Shown here: piece by piece, positions 55,946 to 64,000 of the stretch | Layout: each line of letters begins with the position of its first letter | Position numbering within the stretch: the first letter of the stretch is position 1 | DNA from: Acidimicrobiia bacterium | Lineage (GTDB): Bacteria > Actinomycetota > Acidimicrobiia > Acidimicrobiales > UBA8592 | Assembly: GCA_030431575.1 (NCBI GenBank) | Contig: JAUIIS010000001.1 | Coordinates: forward strand, 1-64,000 | Length of the DNA: 64,000 nt | Direction: 5' to 3' | Position numbers and translations under genes: made by a program | The notes under the pieces: model-generated | The model's input: the letters and a program-made list of their open reading frames with translations, nothing else | What the model was told of the DNA's origin: nothing | The model's database searches: none

Positions 55946-57346
55946 ATGCCAAGGGGGGAACCTGAGATCTTCATTAGCTACCGGCGATCCGACGTAGCCG
56001 GTTGGGCAGTCGCCTTGTTCCAGCGGCTCAGCCAGGCGCTGGGCGATGGCGTTGTCTTCATGGACAGCGACGGCATCGAACCCGGCGATGCATTCCCGAC
56101 GAGGCTGGCCGATGCGCTCGACTCGGCTCGCGTCGTCATTGTGTTGATGGGTCCGCGCTGGAGTCAGGAGGTGCGCGAGCGTTCCGCTTTGGGGCAACGG
56201 GACTGGGTGGTCCACGAGATCGAAACAGCCTTCAAGCGCGGAACCAGAGTGGTTCCCGTGATAGTTGACAAGGCCTCAATGCCCTCGGCCAGCGACCTCC
56301 CTGAAAGCATCGGCCACCTCCACAACTTGCACTACTTCGAAGTTCGGGGTTCGGCCTATGGCCGCGATGTCGATGGACTTGTCGAAGAGATGGAGGACGC
56401 GTTGGCCGCGGACGCAATCGACCAGGCAAGAGGTGGCCAAACCAACCGGGGAGTCAAGACCATCTTGGATGCGGCGGGCTGGGCTTCGCTCATCGCTCGT
56501 GTTGAGTCCGGCGCCTGCGTCCCAGTCTTGGGCCCGGCGGTCAGCCCCGACGTTGAACCGCAACTACAAAGCCTGCTCTCACGGGCTCGCACGGTTCCAG
56601 CAAGCCTCATCGGCGACACCGAGCTACCTCGCGTTGCCCAGGCGGTGACGGTGGGCGTCGACCGCGCGTTTGTACGCCAAGCTCTCACCAGCGCTCATCA
56701 AGACCAAGCGAACCAGGCCACCCCTGAACGCGACGGGTGTGAACCCTTCGCGCGGCTCAATGTGCCGCTCTATCTCACGACCAGTTACAGCAACGAGTTG
56801 GCGATCTCCCTCGGGAAACGCGAGCGCCCTGCGCGCATGGTCGAACCCGCACGACAAAGTCGCCTCGACGGGGGCATCGGGCTGGCACTCGAAGCCCCGC
56901 CGCTCAGCCTCGATGTCAAAGAACCAACCGTGGTGCACCTCTTCGGCCGCTACGACAACCCAGGCCAGATGACGGTGACTGAAGATGACTTCTTCGACCT
57001 CCTCGTTCGAATGAGCCGTGAACAGGGATTCTTTGATCCCGCTGTCCGCAGCCAACTCGCCACCTCATCGCTGCTCTTTGTTGGCTTCCGACTAGATGAT
57101 TGGCGCTTCAGGCTGCTCCTTCGTGGGTTTGGCGCGCAGCTCGCCGATACCGGAATCTCAAGCATTGCGGTGGTGCAAGTTGATCCGGAGGACATCCCTG
57201 ACGGCCATGATGAGAGTACGGTCTCGGGCTTCGTCGAGCGGTACTTCACCTCCGGTCGTGCTGTTGATGTTCGTGCCTATGTCGGGAGTGCCCAGTCCTT
57301 TACCGCCGACCTCGAACAGCGGCTAGGTAAGAGTCTCAACTCATGA
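55946..57346 (+). CDS. TIR domain + SIR2-like (SIR2_2-type) fusion protein
   Basis: N-term EIFISYRRSDVAGWA.., DWVVHEIETAF (TIR catalytic Glu position); C-term YLTTSYS, VVHLFGRYDNPGQMTVTEDDF, SSLLFVGFRLDDWRFRLLL. Confidence 0.87.
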   Translation: MPRGEPEIFISYRRSDVAGWAVALFQRLSQALGDGVVFMDSDGIEPGDAFPTRLADALDSARVVIVLMGPRWSQEVRERSALGQRDWVVHEIETAFKRGTRVVPVIVDKASMPSASDLPESIGHLHNLHYFEVRGSAYGRDVDGLVEEMEDALAADAIDQARGGQTNRGVKTILDAAGWASLIARVESGACVPVLGPAVSPDVEPQLQSLLSRARTVPASLIGDTELPRVAQAVTVGVDRAFVRQALTSAHQDQANQATPERDGCEPFARLNVPLYLTTSYSNELAISLGKRERPARMVEPARQSRLDGGIGLALEAPPLSLDVKEPTVVHLFGRYDNPGQMTVTEDDFFDLLVRMSREQGFFDPAVRSQLATSSLLFVGFRLDDWRFRLLLRGFGAQLADTGISSIAVVQVDPEDIPDGHDESTVSGFVERYFTSGRAVDVRAYVGSAQSFTADLEQRLGKSLNS

Positions 57347-59823
57347 CCGACGCCAATGGCGAGCCATCGGGCCCGACGAGCGGCATTCGGAACCCCTTCG
57401 TTGGCCCGCGGCCATTCGAGGACACCCCCCAGGATCGTGCGCGATTCTTTGGCCGCGACCTAGAGACGGCCGAGGTCACATCGCTTATCCTCACCCAACA
57501 GACGCTGTTGCTGTACGCCGCGTCTGGCGCAGGCAAGTCTTCGCTGATGAAGGCTGCGGTACTGCCCATCTTGCGAGAACGCGGTGTCGAGGTGCTTCCG
57601 GTGGCGCGCTTCCAGACAGCCCGAAAGTACGCGTCGGGTAGCGAAGGTAACCCATATGTCCGAGCCGTTATTGAGTCACTCGGCCTCGACTTGGCGCCCG
57701 ACGCACACCTCAACCAGGCCATGGCTCTCAAGCGCTCAGCGGCCGGCTACTCGACGGGCTTGAGCCTTCTCGTCTTCGACCAGTTCGAAGAACTGTTCAC
57801 GATCATCACGGACGACACCACAGCGCATCGCCGCGAGTTCTTCACCCAAATCCGGGCGATCCTCGAAGATGACCCGCTGCTTCGGTTGGTGTTTGTGGTG
57901 CGCGAAGACTTTCTTGCGAGAGTCGATCCCTATGCGGCTCTGCTTCAAGGGGGAATACGCGCCCGATTCCGGCTGCGTCGACTTAGTCCTGCTGCTGCGA
58001 CCGACGCGATCATCAAACCGTTGCGCTCAGTGGGTAAGGAATGCGAACCCGGAGCGGCCGATTCGCTCGTTGTTGGGCTAGCTGAAACAAAATCGCTTGA
58101 TGCAGATGGCATCGTGCGCGACGTACCGGGCGAGTTCGTCGAAGCGGTGCAGCTGCAAGTGGTCTGTCGCGATCTCTGGGATGGGCTGCCACACGATGCC
58201 CAGGTGCTGACAAAGGAGCACTTCGCTCGAGCCGGCAATGTAGATCGGGCGCTGACAAACCACTATGAGCGTGCGATTACCAAGGCTGCCCAGGCCGCCG
58301 ACATGCCTGAAGCCAAGATTCGTCGTTGGGTAGACAACTCGCTGATCACAAGCTTGGGGACACGCAACCCCATCCTGGACGAGGATGCGGACGAGATGGC
58401 TGACGTCATCGCCTCATTGGAAGCTAACCGGCTGCTTCGGCCTGAGCTTCGCTCGGGAGCACGCTGGTTCGAGCTCACCCACGACCGCCTCATCGGGCCG
58501 ATCCAGGAGAGCAATCTCGCGGCGAGAGAAGCGGCGAAGGACCGCTTTTTGAAACGTCTCCTGATCGCAGGCGGCGTCGCTGCGGTGCTGTTGACCGCGG
58601 TTGGGATCTGGATCGGTTTTCTTGCAGACTCCGATACGGCGGTCGCGGTTCCCACGCCGGTACCCGGCCCAGAAGGAACTGTTGAGATCGGTGGAGGTCC
58701 TGAGGACCCATTGCCCGACAGCATGATGGACATTGATGGCGTTCAGGCGGTAACCGGATTCGTCGACCAACCATTCAGGGTCGATGTTGCCGTCACCGCT
58801 CAGCGCGCCACTAATGCCACGCTCGAGGTTGGCTTCTCCGACGATGAATTCGAGTTCCTCACAAGCGATGGGCTTGCGTGCACCCAATTACCTGCTGACG
58901 GGTCATTCGTCGTTGTCCAATGCGCGCTCCCTGCGGAGTTCGACGACGAGGTTCACCTCGACTTGCAACCGTTGGGCCTCCTGCAAGCCGCTCCCGTGCA
59001 GGCCACGGTGTTCAGCGCGGCAACCGAGGACGACCCAACCAGCGACGACATCGTCCTGGCACAGGACTTACTGACCGCTGATGTGGTGGTTGACACCAGA
59101 CCCCTCCTCGAGGGCGTCGAGGCCGTGGAGTTCGTTGAAGCCGCCCCTGGAGGGGTCGAGGCCCGCGGACTCCAGCAGTGGTTCCCCGTTGTTGCTGTGC
59201 AAACCAACGAGGTCGACTGCCTTTTTGTGATGGCCCAGGAGTTTGGCGATGGTCGAGTAGTCGCCATTGGCCACGACGCGCTGTTGAGCTCAGAGATTGA
59301 GCATGCCGACAACGCCCGACTTGTCAGCAACATCTTGAGGTGGGTGGGCAAGGACAACGCCCGCGTGGCCTTTGCTGCCAATGGTTTCGCCTGGACAACG
59401 TCGGCCACGTCGCCGGGTCTCGAAGCCGAGATTGCGACGCTCGGGTACAGCAGCGAGGACGTCGAGGATTTGCGGGATCTCTCAGGCATTGATGTCTTGG
59501 TCATTGGCAACAGTTGGGAGTACCTGTCGTCCGCCGAGTACGTGGAAATTGGGACGTTCGTCGAAAATGGCGGCGGCCTAGTGCTCGCGGGCCTGGGATG
59601 GTCTTGGGAAGCTTTCGTGTTTCCGAACCCAGCCACCGGCAACAGCCTCGATCCGAATTGGGCGGACATCCCGGTGGGGGTACCCCTCTACACCATGGAT
59701 GTCATCGGCCTGTCCTTTGACGTGGTCTGGTCGAGAGAGATTCTCGACCCGGCAACCCTGTATCCGGTTGCGCCGTCGATCGTGCTTCCCACTGCGGATC
59801 AGCTCAAGTGTCTGGGGTTATGA
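57343..59823 (+). CDS. nSTAND1-type NTPase with one TM and predicted extracytoplasmic beta/GATase1-like (TCAF-like) C-terminus
   Basis: NPFVGPRPFEDTPQDRARFFGRDLE, AASGAGKSSL, LSLLVFDQFEELF; TM LLIAGGVAAVLLTAVGIWIGFL; C-term IDVLVIGNSWEYLSSAEYVEIGTFVENGGGLVLAGLGWSW. Confidence 0.83.
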   Translation: MTDANGEPSGPTSGIRNPFVGPRPFEDTPQDRARFFGRDLETAEVTSLILTQQTLLLYAASGAGKSSLMKAAVLPILRERGVEVLPVARFQTARKYASGSEGNPYVRAVIESLGLDLAPDAHLNQAMALKRSAAGYSTGLSLLVFDQFEELFTIITDDTTAHRREFFTQIRAILEDDPLLRLVFVVREDFLARVDPYAALLQGGIRARFRLRRLSPAAATDAIIKPLRSVGKECEPGAADSLVVGLAETKSLDADGIVRDVPGEFVEAVQLQVVCRDLWDGLPHDAQVLTKEHFARAGNVDRALTNHYERAITKAAQAADMPEAKIRRWVDNSLITSLGTRNPILDEDADEMADVIASLEANRLLRPELRSGARWFELTHDRLIGPIQESNLAAREAAKDRFLKRLLIAGGVAAVLLTAVGIWIGFLADSDTAVAVPTPVPGPEGTVEIGGGPEDPLPDSMMDIDGVQAVTGFVDQPFRVDVAVTAQRATNATLEVGFSDDEFEFLTSDGLACTQLPADGSFVVVQCALPAEFDDEVHLDLQPLGLLQAAPVQATVFSAATEDDPTSDDIVLAQDLLTADVVVDTRPLLEGVEAVEFVEAAPGGVEARGLQQWFPVVAVQTNEVDCLFVMAQEFGDGRVVAIGHDALLSSEIEHADNARLVSNILRWVGKDNARVAFAANGFAWTTSATSPGLEAEIATLGYSSEDVEDLRDLSGIDVLVIGNSWEYLSSAEYVEIGTFVENGGGLVLAGLGWSWEAFVFPNPATGNSLDPNWADIPVGVPLYTMDVIGLSFDVVWSREILDPATLYPVAPSIVLPTADQLKCLGL

Positions 59824-60722
59824 GGCCGGCCCCGGAACCCTCGTCAACGCTGCAATCTGCGTGGCAGATCCACCGCGGCTGGTCCGAGGCGGCAGACCGG
59901 ATCAAGGCAGAGATCACTCGTGCCCGCACCGCGAGCCTAGTCCTGCTGGTTTCTGCGGCGGTGTTCGGGGCAGTGACGGCGCAGGACCAAGACTGGGTCA
60001 GCGATGCCACCTGGCAGCGCTTCTGGGGTATTGCGGCGGCAGTTTCGCTCGCCGGGGCCGGCGCCATCGAGACCCTCTATGCAACCCCGGCGAGAACGCG
60101 AGGGTGGACCTCTGCCCGTCAAGCGTCGGAGAGGCTCAAGGCCGCCGTTTGGCTCTACTTGTGTGAGGCACCGCCGTTTCACCGAGACACCGAGGCCGAG
60201 CGCGACGCACAGTTGTTCGAGCTTGTCGAAGATGTCGAGCGCAGGGCTTCTGCGGAGGCCACGCGTTCCGACCCTGTGTCGCTGCGAGAGCTCCCGAAAG
60301 TGCGCCCAAACCACCTTGCCGAAGATTACGTGGCTGGGCGGGCCCAGGGGCAGCTGAACTGGCACCGCGAGAACGGAGCGCTCGAGCGCAAACGGGGACG
60401 GCGCCTCAAGAGCGCGGTGGCGGTTCTCACAGCAATCGGCGCAGTCCTTGCTGGCCTTGGCGGCGTCTTCGAGACAGCGAGGCTGGCCACCTGGATAGCG
60501 GCCTTCTCGGCAGCAACAGCAGCACTGACGACGCATGCTGGTTCAGTGCAGCACGAGCAGGTGTCATTTTCGTATCTCAACACTGCGAGCCGGATTGAAC
60601 TGGCCATGCAACGCCAACGCACGCATGGAAGCTCCCCGGAAACCGATCGGCAGCTTGTGGTTGAGGTAGAGCAGATCCTGGCTGTGCAGAACGACATCTG
60701 GGGCCAGGTGATCGACCAGTAA
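59820..60722 (+). CDS. DUF4231/SLATT-like multi-TM protein
   Basis: Two TM pairs; ARQASERLKAAVWLYLCEAPPF and YLNTASRIELAMQRQRTH typical of SLATT-type helical cytoplasmic parts; ATGA overlap with STAND gene. Confidence 0.7.
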   Translation: MRPAPEPSSTLQSAWQIHRGWSEAADRIKAEITRARTASLVLLVSAAVFGAVTAQDQDWVSDATWQRFWGIAAAVSLAGAGAIETLYATPARTRGWTSARQASERLKAAVWLYLCEAPPFHRDTEAERDAQLFELVEDVERRASAEATRSDPVSLRELPKVRPNHLAEDYVAGRAQGQLNWHRENGALERKRGRRLKSAVAVLTAIGAVLAGLGGVFETARLATWIAAFSAATAALTTHAGSVQHEQVSFSYLNTASRIELAMQRQRTHGSSPETDRQLVVEVEQILAVQNDIWGQVIDQ

Positions 60723-60737
60723 GCGCGTGGCTGATCT

Positions 60738-61898
60738 CTAGCTCGACGTCGCAACTCCTTCGAAGTTGCTGAACGCATCAAGTGACACCTGGCGGCCAAC
60801 GGCTCGCCCCACTTCGCGGAGCTCATTGATGTGGCTCATCCCTGCCACTCGGTGGAGTCCAGCGAGGGTCTTGCGGCCGCTCAGGTGGCTGAGACCCAGC
60901 TCTTCAAGCCCACCAATAGTGAGCGTGGCGTTGTACCGGGCATAGGTGAACTTGCGGTCTTCGGCACCGGCTCCTTCTGAGAGGTTGCCGATCTCGCGGT
61001 CCAGCGGCGCTCCATGGACGCAGTGTCCAACCGTTCGACACGACAGGTCTTGGTGTTGCACTGCTCCACCCAACAAGGTGCCCGGCAACGTCTTGAGTGT
61101 GTAGAGCGCGTGCATGTCTCTCGCTCGAAGTTCTGGCTGAACGTTGGGCGTCATCCCCGTCCCGACAGACACCACGAGCATCTTGTCGACGCCGGTAGGC
61201 CAGCACAGCCGGTACTCGGGCAGTGTGGCCTGGGTATAGAGCTGGAAAGCCGGGTTGTTGTAGGGCGTGATTGCCCCGTCTACGAACACAAAATCTCGCC
61301 CACCCAATGTCACCGGTTCGGGGGGGTAGATCAATGGTGCGGCCGTGCTTGCTCTGACAACCTCCCAAAGCGGCAGACGAAGATTGCAGTCGTCGCGGGA
61401 CGCAGCGTTGTACTTGGCCAACGGGTTGTTGCTCAGCGGCCAGGCGGAATCGGTGTTTGCATTGTGCATCACAACAAGCAGCAGTGACTTGAAGTCCGCG
61501 TCCCCAAAGTACGTGTCAGCTCCATATTCCTCTCGCATCCCGGCGGCCAGCTTGGCGCTCGGGAACCTGTAGCCAAGTAGCGTTCGCACTCTCTTGTGGA
61601 ACGGGAGCGTCTCGAACATCTCGGGCCCACGCTCGGTGTAGATCCGCATCAGCCGCTCCACCGGCCATCCAAGGGCCAGGCCCGAAGCAATCATTGCGCC
61701 CGTTGATGTACCAGCAAAATAGTCGAAGTAGTCCGAAAGGACGAGGTCAGGTTTCTTGTACTTGGCCCGGAGTTTGGTTTCGAGCGCTGACAACACCTCG
61801 AGGCTTAACACGCCTCGGATCCCACCACCGTCCAGCGCCAGCAGACGCCTTTGGCCCGCGACTCTTGCGTCCGGAACCAACTCCATTATCTCACGCAC
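60738..61898 (-). CDS. Patatin-like phospholipase
   Basis: LLALDGGGIRGVLSLEVL oxyanion loop, FAGTSTGAMIA nucleophile elbow, VDGAITPYNNPA catalytic Asp. Confidence 0.93.
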   Translation of the reverse strand: MREIMELVPDARVAGQRRLLALDGGGIRGVLSLEVLSALETKLRAKYKKPDLVLSDYFDYFAGTSTGAMIASGLALGWPVERLMRIYTERGPEMFETLPFHKRVRTLLGYRFPSAKLAAGMREEYGADTYFGDADFKSLLLVVMHNANTDSAWPLSNNPLAKYNAASRDDCNLRLPLWEVVRASTAAPLIYPPEPVTLGGRDFVFVDGAITPYNNPAFQLYTQATLPEYRLCWPTGVDKMLVVSVGTGMTPNVQPELRARDMHALYTLKTLPGTLLGGAVQHQDLSCRTVGHCVHGAPLDREIGNLSEGAGAEDRKFTYARYNATLTIGGLEELGLSHLSGRKTLAGLHRVAGMSHINELREVGRAVGRQVSLDAFSNFEGVATSS

Positions 61899-62085
61899 AA
61901 GACCCCACCCTCTGGAGAAGCCGCGTATACGGCCAGTCTCTCACTGAAACCGCAGTCGACAACGGCGTTGTTGTCAACTCGGCCTGTCTTCCTCGCACAT
62001 GCTGTGGTACCAAAGTGCTCTGCCAGGTGCTGGCAGGTGAGGCGCAATCGCTGCGCCACAAGAGTCTTCGGACAAAGCGGGACAG

Positions 62086-63666
62086 ATGAACCAGGTGCCA
62101 ACCGAGTGGGACAAGCGTTGGATTACCAGCCTTCGATGGATGCGGGAGAAGCACCATCACACACTGCACGAGGCAAGTAAGAAGAGCTTCCGACGCCGCC
62201 ATGTCCCCACGAACGGAATGCCGGCTGTGGTCCCGGCCGCTTCGAAATACCGGAATCTGTCTTGGCTTCCCCCTCAGTTGGTTGTGCCTACCAAGCTCCC
62301 CAAAGAAAGCCGTCTGCCCAAAGGGTACTTCTACCCCTACTACGGGTTGAGCAAGGCGGTGTGGACGGCGTATTACAAGAACCCAATGTCCTCCGATGTC
62401 GAATGGGACCCAAGCTTCGATTGGAACAACGCCTTCCCGCCAACCCAAGACGGCTGGGAACGTCCAACCAGCGACGAGAGCTTTGCGTTGTTGCGCCTGC
62501 AAGGACCGAATCCCTGGCTGTTGCGCCGCTTGAAGCCCGAAGGTGGCTCCCGCTCCTTCGAGGTCGACTATCGGCCGTACTTCAGTGGCATGTTTGCAGA
62601 CGTGGTGTGCCGTTTCGACACACACGAAGCGAAGCTCGTCGCCACCGCCATCACCGTTGGCCCCGACACCTTTACGCCCGGTGATCCTGGGTGGGAACAA
62701 GCAAAGCGGATCGCCAACGCGCTCGATGCTCGATACAGCGCATTTGTGAGCCACCTCCTGTACACGCACCTGATTGTCGGTCAGGCATACGCGTTGTCCA
62801 CCTATGCGCTGTCGCCCTCGCACGTGTTGCGACCGTTCCTGCAATTCTTCACTTATGGCACGCTGGAGGTCAACGAGACTGCCTATCAGGCTTTGCTTAC
62901 GCCAAAGAGCTACTTCATCATGTCTGGCTTCCTGGCGCCCGAAGACGTACGCGTGCTGTTTCACAATGCTGTTGAGGCATTCGATTTCGACACCTGGAAC
63001 GTTCCTGCTGATCTCAGCGTCCGCGGCCTGACCGGGAGCGCCGATCAGGAAAGCGATCCAATCAACCCGTACGTGGAAGACGCAACGCTTGTCTGGCCGG
63101 TCCTTGCCGACTTTGTGCGCCAGCATCTCGCAGACGTCGGCATAGACGACGCGAGTATTTCCGCCGACCATGATCTGAGCATCTGGTACCTGACCCTCAT
63201 GCGGGGCCTGCCAAACACTGACCACAACGAGCCGCTCACCCTAGAGCGCCTCACAGACCTGTTGACTCGCCTGATCTACAACAACGTCGTGCACGAGATC
63301 TGTGGCGATCTGTCGCCGATCCTGGGCTCAGAAGATCCCGCCGACAAAGCGACGATCAACCTCCAGAAGCTGCGCTCGGCTCTCGAGACAGGTGGGGTGA
63401 CCGAGCCGACAGAGCCGGCGAGCATGAGCGACGTGTTCTTGTTAGACCAGGCGTCCTACGTAAGTCGGTTCAACGTCACCGGCAACGGCCTGCTCGAGAT
63501 AGAGCCGTTTCGCTTTATCGATGATCCTCGGTTGGCTGGCGCGGTGAAGAGCCTCCAAGGAACGCTCATCGAGGTTCAACAAGTCCTTGTCGAGCGCAAC
63601 AAACACCGAGCCGTGACGTTCGCTCGCATGTTCCCCCGTCATTGGGAAGCATCGATCAGCTTCTAG
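62086..63666 (+). CDS. Lipoxygenase-family protein
   Basis: LRLQGPNPWLLRRLK, GDPGWEQAKRIANALDARYSAFVSHLLYTHLI (HX4H), PYVEDATLVWPVLADFVRQHL, LTRLIYNNVVHEICGD, C-terminus ..ASISF. Confidence 0.82.
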   Translation: MNQVPTEWDKRWITSLRWMREKHHHTLHEASKKSFRRRHVPTNGMPAVVPAASKYRNLSWLPPQLVVPTKLPKESRLPKGYFYPYYGLSKAVWTAYYKNPMSSDVEWDPSFDWNNAFPPTQDGWERPTSDESFALLRLQGPNPWLLRRLKPEGGSRSFEVDYRPYFSGMFADVVCRFDTHEAKLVATAITVGPDTFTPGDPGWEQAKRIANALDARYSAFVSHLLYTHLIVGQAYALSTYALSPSHVLRPFLQFFTYGTLEVNETAYQALLTPKSYFIMSGFLAPEDVRVLFHNAVEAFDFDTWNVPADLSVRGLTGSADQESDPINPYVEDATLVWPVLADFVRQHLADVGIDDASISADHDLSIWYLTLMRGLPNTDHNEPLTLERLTDLLTRLIYNNVVHEICGDLSPILGSEDPADKATINLQKLRSALETGGVTEPTEPASMSDVFLLDQASYVSRFNVTGNGLLEIEPFRFIDDPRLAGAVKSLQGTLIEVQQVLVERNKHRAVTFARMFPRHWEASISF

Positions 63667-63684: not shown

Positions 63685-64000
63685 CTAGTGCTTGCGATCT
63701 TTGGGACGCTGCACGTGACGGAAGTAGAGACGGTCACCAGCATCTGAGGAGACAAAGCGACTGGCTGTTCTGAGCTCACCCAATGGCACCGCGTCGCTGC
63801 CCGACACTGCCAGGACGTCATACAACACGGTTCCAGGCTCGAGGCTGCCCAACACTCTGCGGAAGTCCACACCTTCCTGCTTCACGAACGCGGCGCTTGG
63901 ACCCTGCTTGGGGGAGAAGATCAACCGGTCGGGAGCGATCGCTGTATCGACCAGCGCTCCGTCGCGACCTTGTCGGCAGAAATGGTCAACGGTGAGTCGT
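63685..64000 (-). CDS. Unidentified protein, 3' part only (continues past window end)
   Basis: Frame open from 64000: RLTVDHFCRQGRDGALVDTAIAPDRLIFSPKQG...GELRTASRFVSSDAGDRLYFRHVQRPKDRKH*. Confidence 0.6.
   Translation of the reverse strand, partial: RLTVDHFCRQGRDGALVDTAIAPDRLIFSPKQGPSAAFVKQEGVDFRRVLGSLEPGTVLYDVLAVSGSDAVPLGELRTASRFVSSDAGDRLYFRHVQRPKDRKH

Follow-up and report, generated by a model that had tools for sequence, protein, structure and literature searches.

Does a patatin-like phospholipase that lies head to head with a lipoxygenase (LOX) homolog, next to an immune-like island of TIR, STAND and SLATT genes, act in sequence with that homolog, i.e., are fatty acids released by the one and oxygenated by the other? 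The question is raised by the right-hand end of a 64,000-nt stretch of an Acidimicrobiia bacterium (GCA_030431575.1, JAUIIS010000001.1, positions 1–64,000, forward strand), hereafter the window. A preliminary description had placed the two genes divergently across about 190 bp and had read intact DGGGIRG, GTSTG and DGA motifs in the patatin. Both statements hold: the genes are 187 bp apart by ORF coordinates, and the motifs, which conform to the GGGxRG, GxSxG and DGA pattern, are all visible in a translation that matches PF01734 at 88.5 bits (cut-off 27.7). In the reading that we favor with moderate confidence, two modules meet here: the TIR-SIR2/nSTAND1/SLATT island plus the patatin on the left, and an oxylipin-type cassette of LOX, catalase-fold and cyclase-STAND genes on the right (Table 1). 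The valuable result is this LOX cassette.

Table 1. Features of the window and of related loci (L numbers) that bear on the two modules.
Feature	Locus	Position	Strand	Length and support
TIR + SIR2-like protein, neighboring island	Window	55946..57346	+	PF13676 1.2e-15, PF13289 4.2e-13
nSTAND1 NTPase, neighboring island	Window	57343..59823	+	PF20703 2.6e-39
SLATT/DUF4231 2TM protein, neighboring island	Window	59808..60722	+	PF18181 1.3e-17, PF14015 7.9e-16
Patatin-like phospholipase	Window	60738..61898	-	386 aa; PF01734 8.8e-25; PADLOC CBASS phospholipase effector 9.4e-36
Intergenic region, patatin/LOX; proposed module boundary	Window	61899..62085	.	ORF coordinates; comparative context
Divergent lipoxygenase homolog, center of LOX cassette	Window	62086..63666	+	526 aa; PF00305 1.6e-11
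Catalase-fold gene, 3' part	Window	63685..64000 (ORF 63685-63999)	-	104-aa ORF; conserved, convergent with LOX
MFS transporter with C-terminal cyclic-nucleotide-binding domain, just upstream of Lipase_3-lipoxygenase fusion	L035	6573-8285		
MFS transporter with C-terminal cyclic-nucleotide-binding domain, just upstream of Lipase_3-lipoxygenase fusion	L037	6610-8301		
MFS transporter with C-terminal cyclic-nucleotide-binding domain, just upstream of Lipase_3-lipoxygenase fusion	L040	6641-8335		
Large proteins at the cassette's fourth position	L034, L036, L041, L042, L044			950-1223 aa; no confident Pfam family
Conserved upstream protein, beta-propeller-like by eye	L045	2-562		
Conserved upstream protein, beta-propeller-like by eye	L046	8488-9831		
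Conserved upstream protein, beta-propeller-like by eye	L047	8017-9912		

The preliminary description had staked its lipoxygenase call on PF00305, and the ORF passes with 43.9 bits (cut-off 23.6), although the match covers profile positions 329–505 of 673 only, about a quarter of the profile; two relatives score under the cut-off. At the level of the fold, the assignment as a lipoxygenase is firm. A profile of 11 homologs finds lipoxygenase structures in the PDB (E 1.6e-22), the AlphaFold model of the window protein (pLDDT 83) is matched by Foldseek to a Pseudomonas lipoxygenase (E 4.9e-17), and profile–profile comparison of the LOX subfamily with canonical bacterial lipoxygenases gives a probability of 99.8 and an E value of 6.7e-29. 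No signal peptide was seen by eye. Like Pseudomonas aeruginosa LoxA and Cyanothece CspLOX2, the window protein has this fold, with His as the first and second ligand; unlike them (about 20% identity), it has HE[IV]CG[DN] in place of HxxxN and a C-terminal Phe/Tyr in place of Ile.

The metal site was compared across 23 Acidimicrobiales loci carrying the LOX subfamily, i.e., the window and 22 others, and all of the cassette counts below refer to this set. The HxxxxH pair (H223 and H228) is kept in 23/23, and so are H403 and E404. The third-ligand segment reads H403-E404-[IV]-C-G-[DN]408 at every locus and lacks a third His with Asn, His or Ser at +4. When the Anabaena enzyme is aligned without gaps, its His falls on E404 and its Asn pairs with D/N408; if the alignment is shifted by one residue, H403 stays as the His and the Asn is lost, and the profile alignment does not settle the register. 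The C-terminus is likewise conserved as EAS[IV][SG][FY] (23/23), with Phe/Tyr at the aligned position of the canonical Ile, so that a terminal Ile or Val carboxylate is found at none of the loci; the terminal carboxylate of Phe/Tyr could still be a metal ligand. Because the third ligand and the C-terminal Ile depart from those expected, we do not count the protein among the bona fide lipoxygenases but regard it as a divergent homolog of them that may work in the same way. With its changed ligands, it is a natural variant on which the lipoxygenase mechanism could be studied.

An order-level search recovered the LOX subfamily in 11 of 199 genomes including the window's own, the others at 45–50% identity. 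A GTDB contig scan with the family alignment gave 22 loci, every one in an Acidimicrobiales MAG; please note that the scan relies on two short peptide patterns and that absence outside the order is suggestive only. A plasmid collection returned solely canonical lipoxygenases, and a search for viral copies gave no hit, so viral spread was rejected. Our literature search for a bacterial lipase–lipoxygenase fusion or a lipoxygenase in Acidimicrobiales found nothing relevant among the papers listed. The LOX cassette, previously undescribed, has so far been seen in Acidimicrobiales only.

Directly after LOX, in 23/23 loci, comes a convergent gene of about 305 codons for a putative catalase-fold protein, the stop-to-stop gap ranging from a 15-bp overlap to 55 bp (-15 to +55). 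On the contig, this gene extends past the window end (63685–64602, 305 aa) and is followed by a cyclase-STAND gene at 64595–67267. Since the third gene of the cassette leaves the window, the cassette was out of sight in the preliminary description, from which these two most constant LOX partners are absent. An antisense artefact was considered for the convergent gene and rejected, as all 23 loci keep it, with 58% mean column identity in an 11-row alignment. The protein had no match in Pfam, NCBIfam or the PDB sequences, and its family was found in 0 of 397 other sampled genomes of the phylum. Catalases and catalase-like enzymes fill the top 50 Foldseek rows of its model (pLDDT 73), though at a modest E (best 1.7e-3), and hhalign of the family against catalases scores 30–39, where 20 column shuffles reach at most 22. 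Invariant H85 (HxxG) and N155 (NHT) align to the distal HAKG and NNTP of catalases, i.e., the distal His (in HAxG) and the distal Asn are both present, whereas the proximal heme Tyr of RxxxY has no aligned Tyr. The model and the modest profile score together point, tentatively, to a catalase fold. At its C-terminus, the chain has a conserved DRL[FY]F[RQ]H motif (DRLFFRH-type).

At 20 of the 23 loci, the cassette also encodes a class III nucleotidyl cyclase-STAND protein (about 900 aa) or one of its STAND relatives, its gene often overlapping the catalase-fold gene by 4–8 bp in an operon-like manner; the three loci lacking it include two with contig ends and L032, which has no such gene in 12 kb. 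The two metal Asp residues and the transition-state Asn/Arg of a class III cyclase are present (FSDIE, GDG and PNRTAR in the copy on the window's contig) and intact at most loci. L030 has degenerate residues at these sites and L028 has no cyclase domain, and both count against the two-module explanation. In five of six genomes checked, one being the window's own, the cyclase at the LOX locus is the closest homolog of the window's cyclase (47–49% identity in the four others, other paralogs 33–42%), and therefore it is not a random abundant regulator; the exception is G140, where the locus cyclase is 35% identical and not the best homolog. In three loci, there is additionally an MFS transporter whose family has a cNMP-binding domain (Table 1), and L035 and L040 have in their vicinity a SulP transporter from a family with this kind of domain.

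Lipases recur around the LOX relatives. At 11 of the 22 other loci, a Lipase_3 domain makes up the N-terminal half and LOX the C-terminal half of a single protein of about 1070 aa, and the lipase half has GHSLGG in all 11 fusions. The fused proteins form one clade (support 100/100), i.e., a single origin on the tree, and the window LOX, itself unfused, is sister to this clade (97/95) on a long branch. Five loci of a neighboring group carry a different alpha/beta hydrolase candidate (about 1000 aa, VVHGIG) with weak Pfam matches to lipase-like families; VVHGIG and AHSQG can be read in four of the five large fourth-position proteins, and these proteins may be lipases as well. Three early-branching loci have an upstream protein with a beta-propeller repeat pattern by eye and no family match. 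The lipid release followed by dioxygenation that the preliminary description envisaged thus keeps its footing in the relatives, where a lipid hydrolase beside LOX recurs (the fusions and the five other hydrolases), but not through this patatin. The fusion makes substrate channeling directly testable.

Homology, fusion and conserved gene order are observed here; from them we infer what each protein catalyzes, in which order, on which substrate and with what signal. An unsaturated fatty acid would be released by a cellular lipase, which in the relatives is fused to LOX or encoded close by, and the lipoxygenase-like metalloenzyme would add dioxygen to this acid; the catalase-fold protein would then, as a probable third step, rearrange or remove the fatty-acid hydroperoxide, and the cyclase-STAND protein may sense a cue and control expression or export via a cyclic nucleotide. 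The window's own genome has four fatty-acid desaturase matches, with which an endogenous unsaturated substrate is possible. Two properties count against this oxylipin-type explanation, i.e., the non-canonical metal motif and C-terminus of LOX, and a catalase-fold partner with neither a recognizable proximal Tyr nor a Pfam or PDB match. It is possible, though we doubt it, that the LOX homolog is a metalloenzyme with a changed chemistry, or a lipid-binding relative without catalysis, and its partner a heme-free scaffold, the cassette sensing or handling lipids but making no oxylipins; the invariance of the unusual ligand motif and C-terminus across the subfamily and the Tyr-less partner would fit such a role. 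However, H223, H228, H403/E404 and the C-terminal position are retained without exception, which speaks for a functional metal site, and the Lipase_3 fusion together with the catalase-fold partner fits the chemistry of fatty-acid hydroperoxides.

The patatin adjoins LOX only in the window, 1 of 23 loci, and the patatin–LOX pair, which was expected to be conserved across genomes, is rejected as such. The expectation that the pair always accompanies the TIR/STAND/SLATT triplet fails as well: the triplet is found at 0 of the 22 other LOX loci, and membership of LOX in that island is rejected. The five closest patatin relatives that we found (43–52% identity) are all beside TIR, nSTAND1, SLATT or TPR-S genes and none has a LOX or catalase-fold gene beside it (0/5). 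The L071 relative has TIR-TPR and TIR-NTPase genes as neighbors; L090 and L092 have nSTAND1-WD40 proteins, TIR-like by eye in their N-terminal segment, within 3 kb of the patatin in L090 and about 17 bp upstream in L092; L093 (5416–7098, on a plasmid of Rhodococcus sp. JS3073) is beside nSTAND1-WD40 and TPR-S genes; and L094 neighbors SLATT/DUF4231, TPR-S and TIR. Three more distant relatives (31–38%) have no TIR/nSTAND/SLATT/TPR-S context. Because its closest relatives sit in such contexts without LOX, we place the patatin in the TIR/STAND/SLATT island, with good, not full, confidence. The N-terminal extension of the L093 patatin has a weak SLOG-family match (YAcAr, 4.9e-4).

In the window's genome (83% complete), neither a Lipase_3 nor a second-hydrolase homolog was found, which counts against the two-module explanation and leaves the patatin as the only local lipase there. 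One may therefore ask if the patatin replaced the cassette lipase in the window lineage and now acts in sequence with LOX from a shared divergent promoter region. The missing lipase, the unfused LOX next to the fused clade, the head-to-head arrangement and a patatin orientation opposite to that of the TIR/STAND/SLATT genes would all agree with this. We nevertheless consider it rather unlikely, as the adjacency is a single instance, the closest patatin relatives keep to the island genes rather than to LOX, and in L071 the patatin and TIR-NTPase genes likewise face each other tail to tail, as the patatin and SLATT genes of the window do. An anti-phage or abortive defense function of the LOX cassette, oxidizing the membrane after infection with cyclase-STAND as the sensor, is improbable: a STAND NTPase does adjoin a lipase and a lipid-oxidizing enzyme homolog and the neighboring island is immune-like, but LOX has no PADLOC match, the cassette was found in one bacterial order only, the TIR/STAND/SLATT island (the sole defense genes looked for) is absent at the other 22 loci, and there are no viral copies.

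For the left-hand module, the components of the island are those of nSTAND/TIR/SLATT conflict systems (PMC7159879). The LOX cassette adjoins such an island at none of the 22 other loci. The 466-aa protein of the island combines TIR_2 and SIR2_2 domains, two NAD-consuming types in one chain, and has PADLOC matches to ThsB (2.6e-6) and ThsA (2.5e-4). The patatin resembles CapV-type CBASS patatins in its domain and in its PADLOC effector match (Table 1). Unlike them, it scores 94 bits against NCBIfam CBASS_lipase, under the 200-bit cut-off, has no CD-NTase among the neighbors scanned with PADLOC and Pfam, and lies in a TIR/nSTAND/SLATT context; an identity as a CBASS CapV effector was rejected on the cut-off and the CD-NTase scan. 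Separating the two modules also puts right what is an attractive yet weak connection of a lipoxygenase with an immune-like island.

For the LOX cassette, precedents exist in the catalase–LOX fusions of cyanobacteria (Anabaena, Acaryochloris; PMC11719350) and the AOS–LOX fusions of corals (PMC3925239), in which a lipoxygenase is coupled to a catalase-fold partner acting on the hydroperoxide. The Acidimicrobiales cassette shares the pairing of LOX with a putative catalase-fold partner. It departs from the fusions by its separate convergent genes, the differing LOX metal motif, a partner with no recognizable heme Tyr, and the added lipase and cyclase-STAND regulator. We know of no fused lipase or cyclase in the cyanobacterial or coral systems. 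A profile comparison of the catalase-fold protein with the catalase domain of the Anabaena fusion detected no direct link. If the two-module reading is true, some Actinobacteria would encode lipid release, dioxygenation and hydroperoxide conversion in one regulated cassette, convergent with the oxylipin pathways of plants, corals and animals. More tentatively, the cassette might be a self-contained, Acidimicrobiales-specific oxylipin operon (lipase, LOX with new ligands, Tyr-less catalase-fold converter, cyclase-STAND and, in some loci, a cNMP-binding transporter), amounting to a bacterial eicosanoid-like signaling. Two genomes of the same order, those of L024 (1282–2928, G107) and L025 (G139), encode a second, canonical-looking lipoxygenase outside the cassette, which in L024 has an intact HxxxN and a C-terminal Val.
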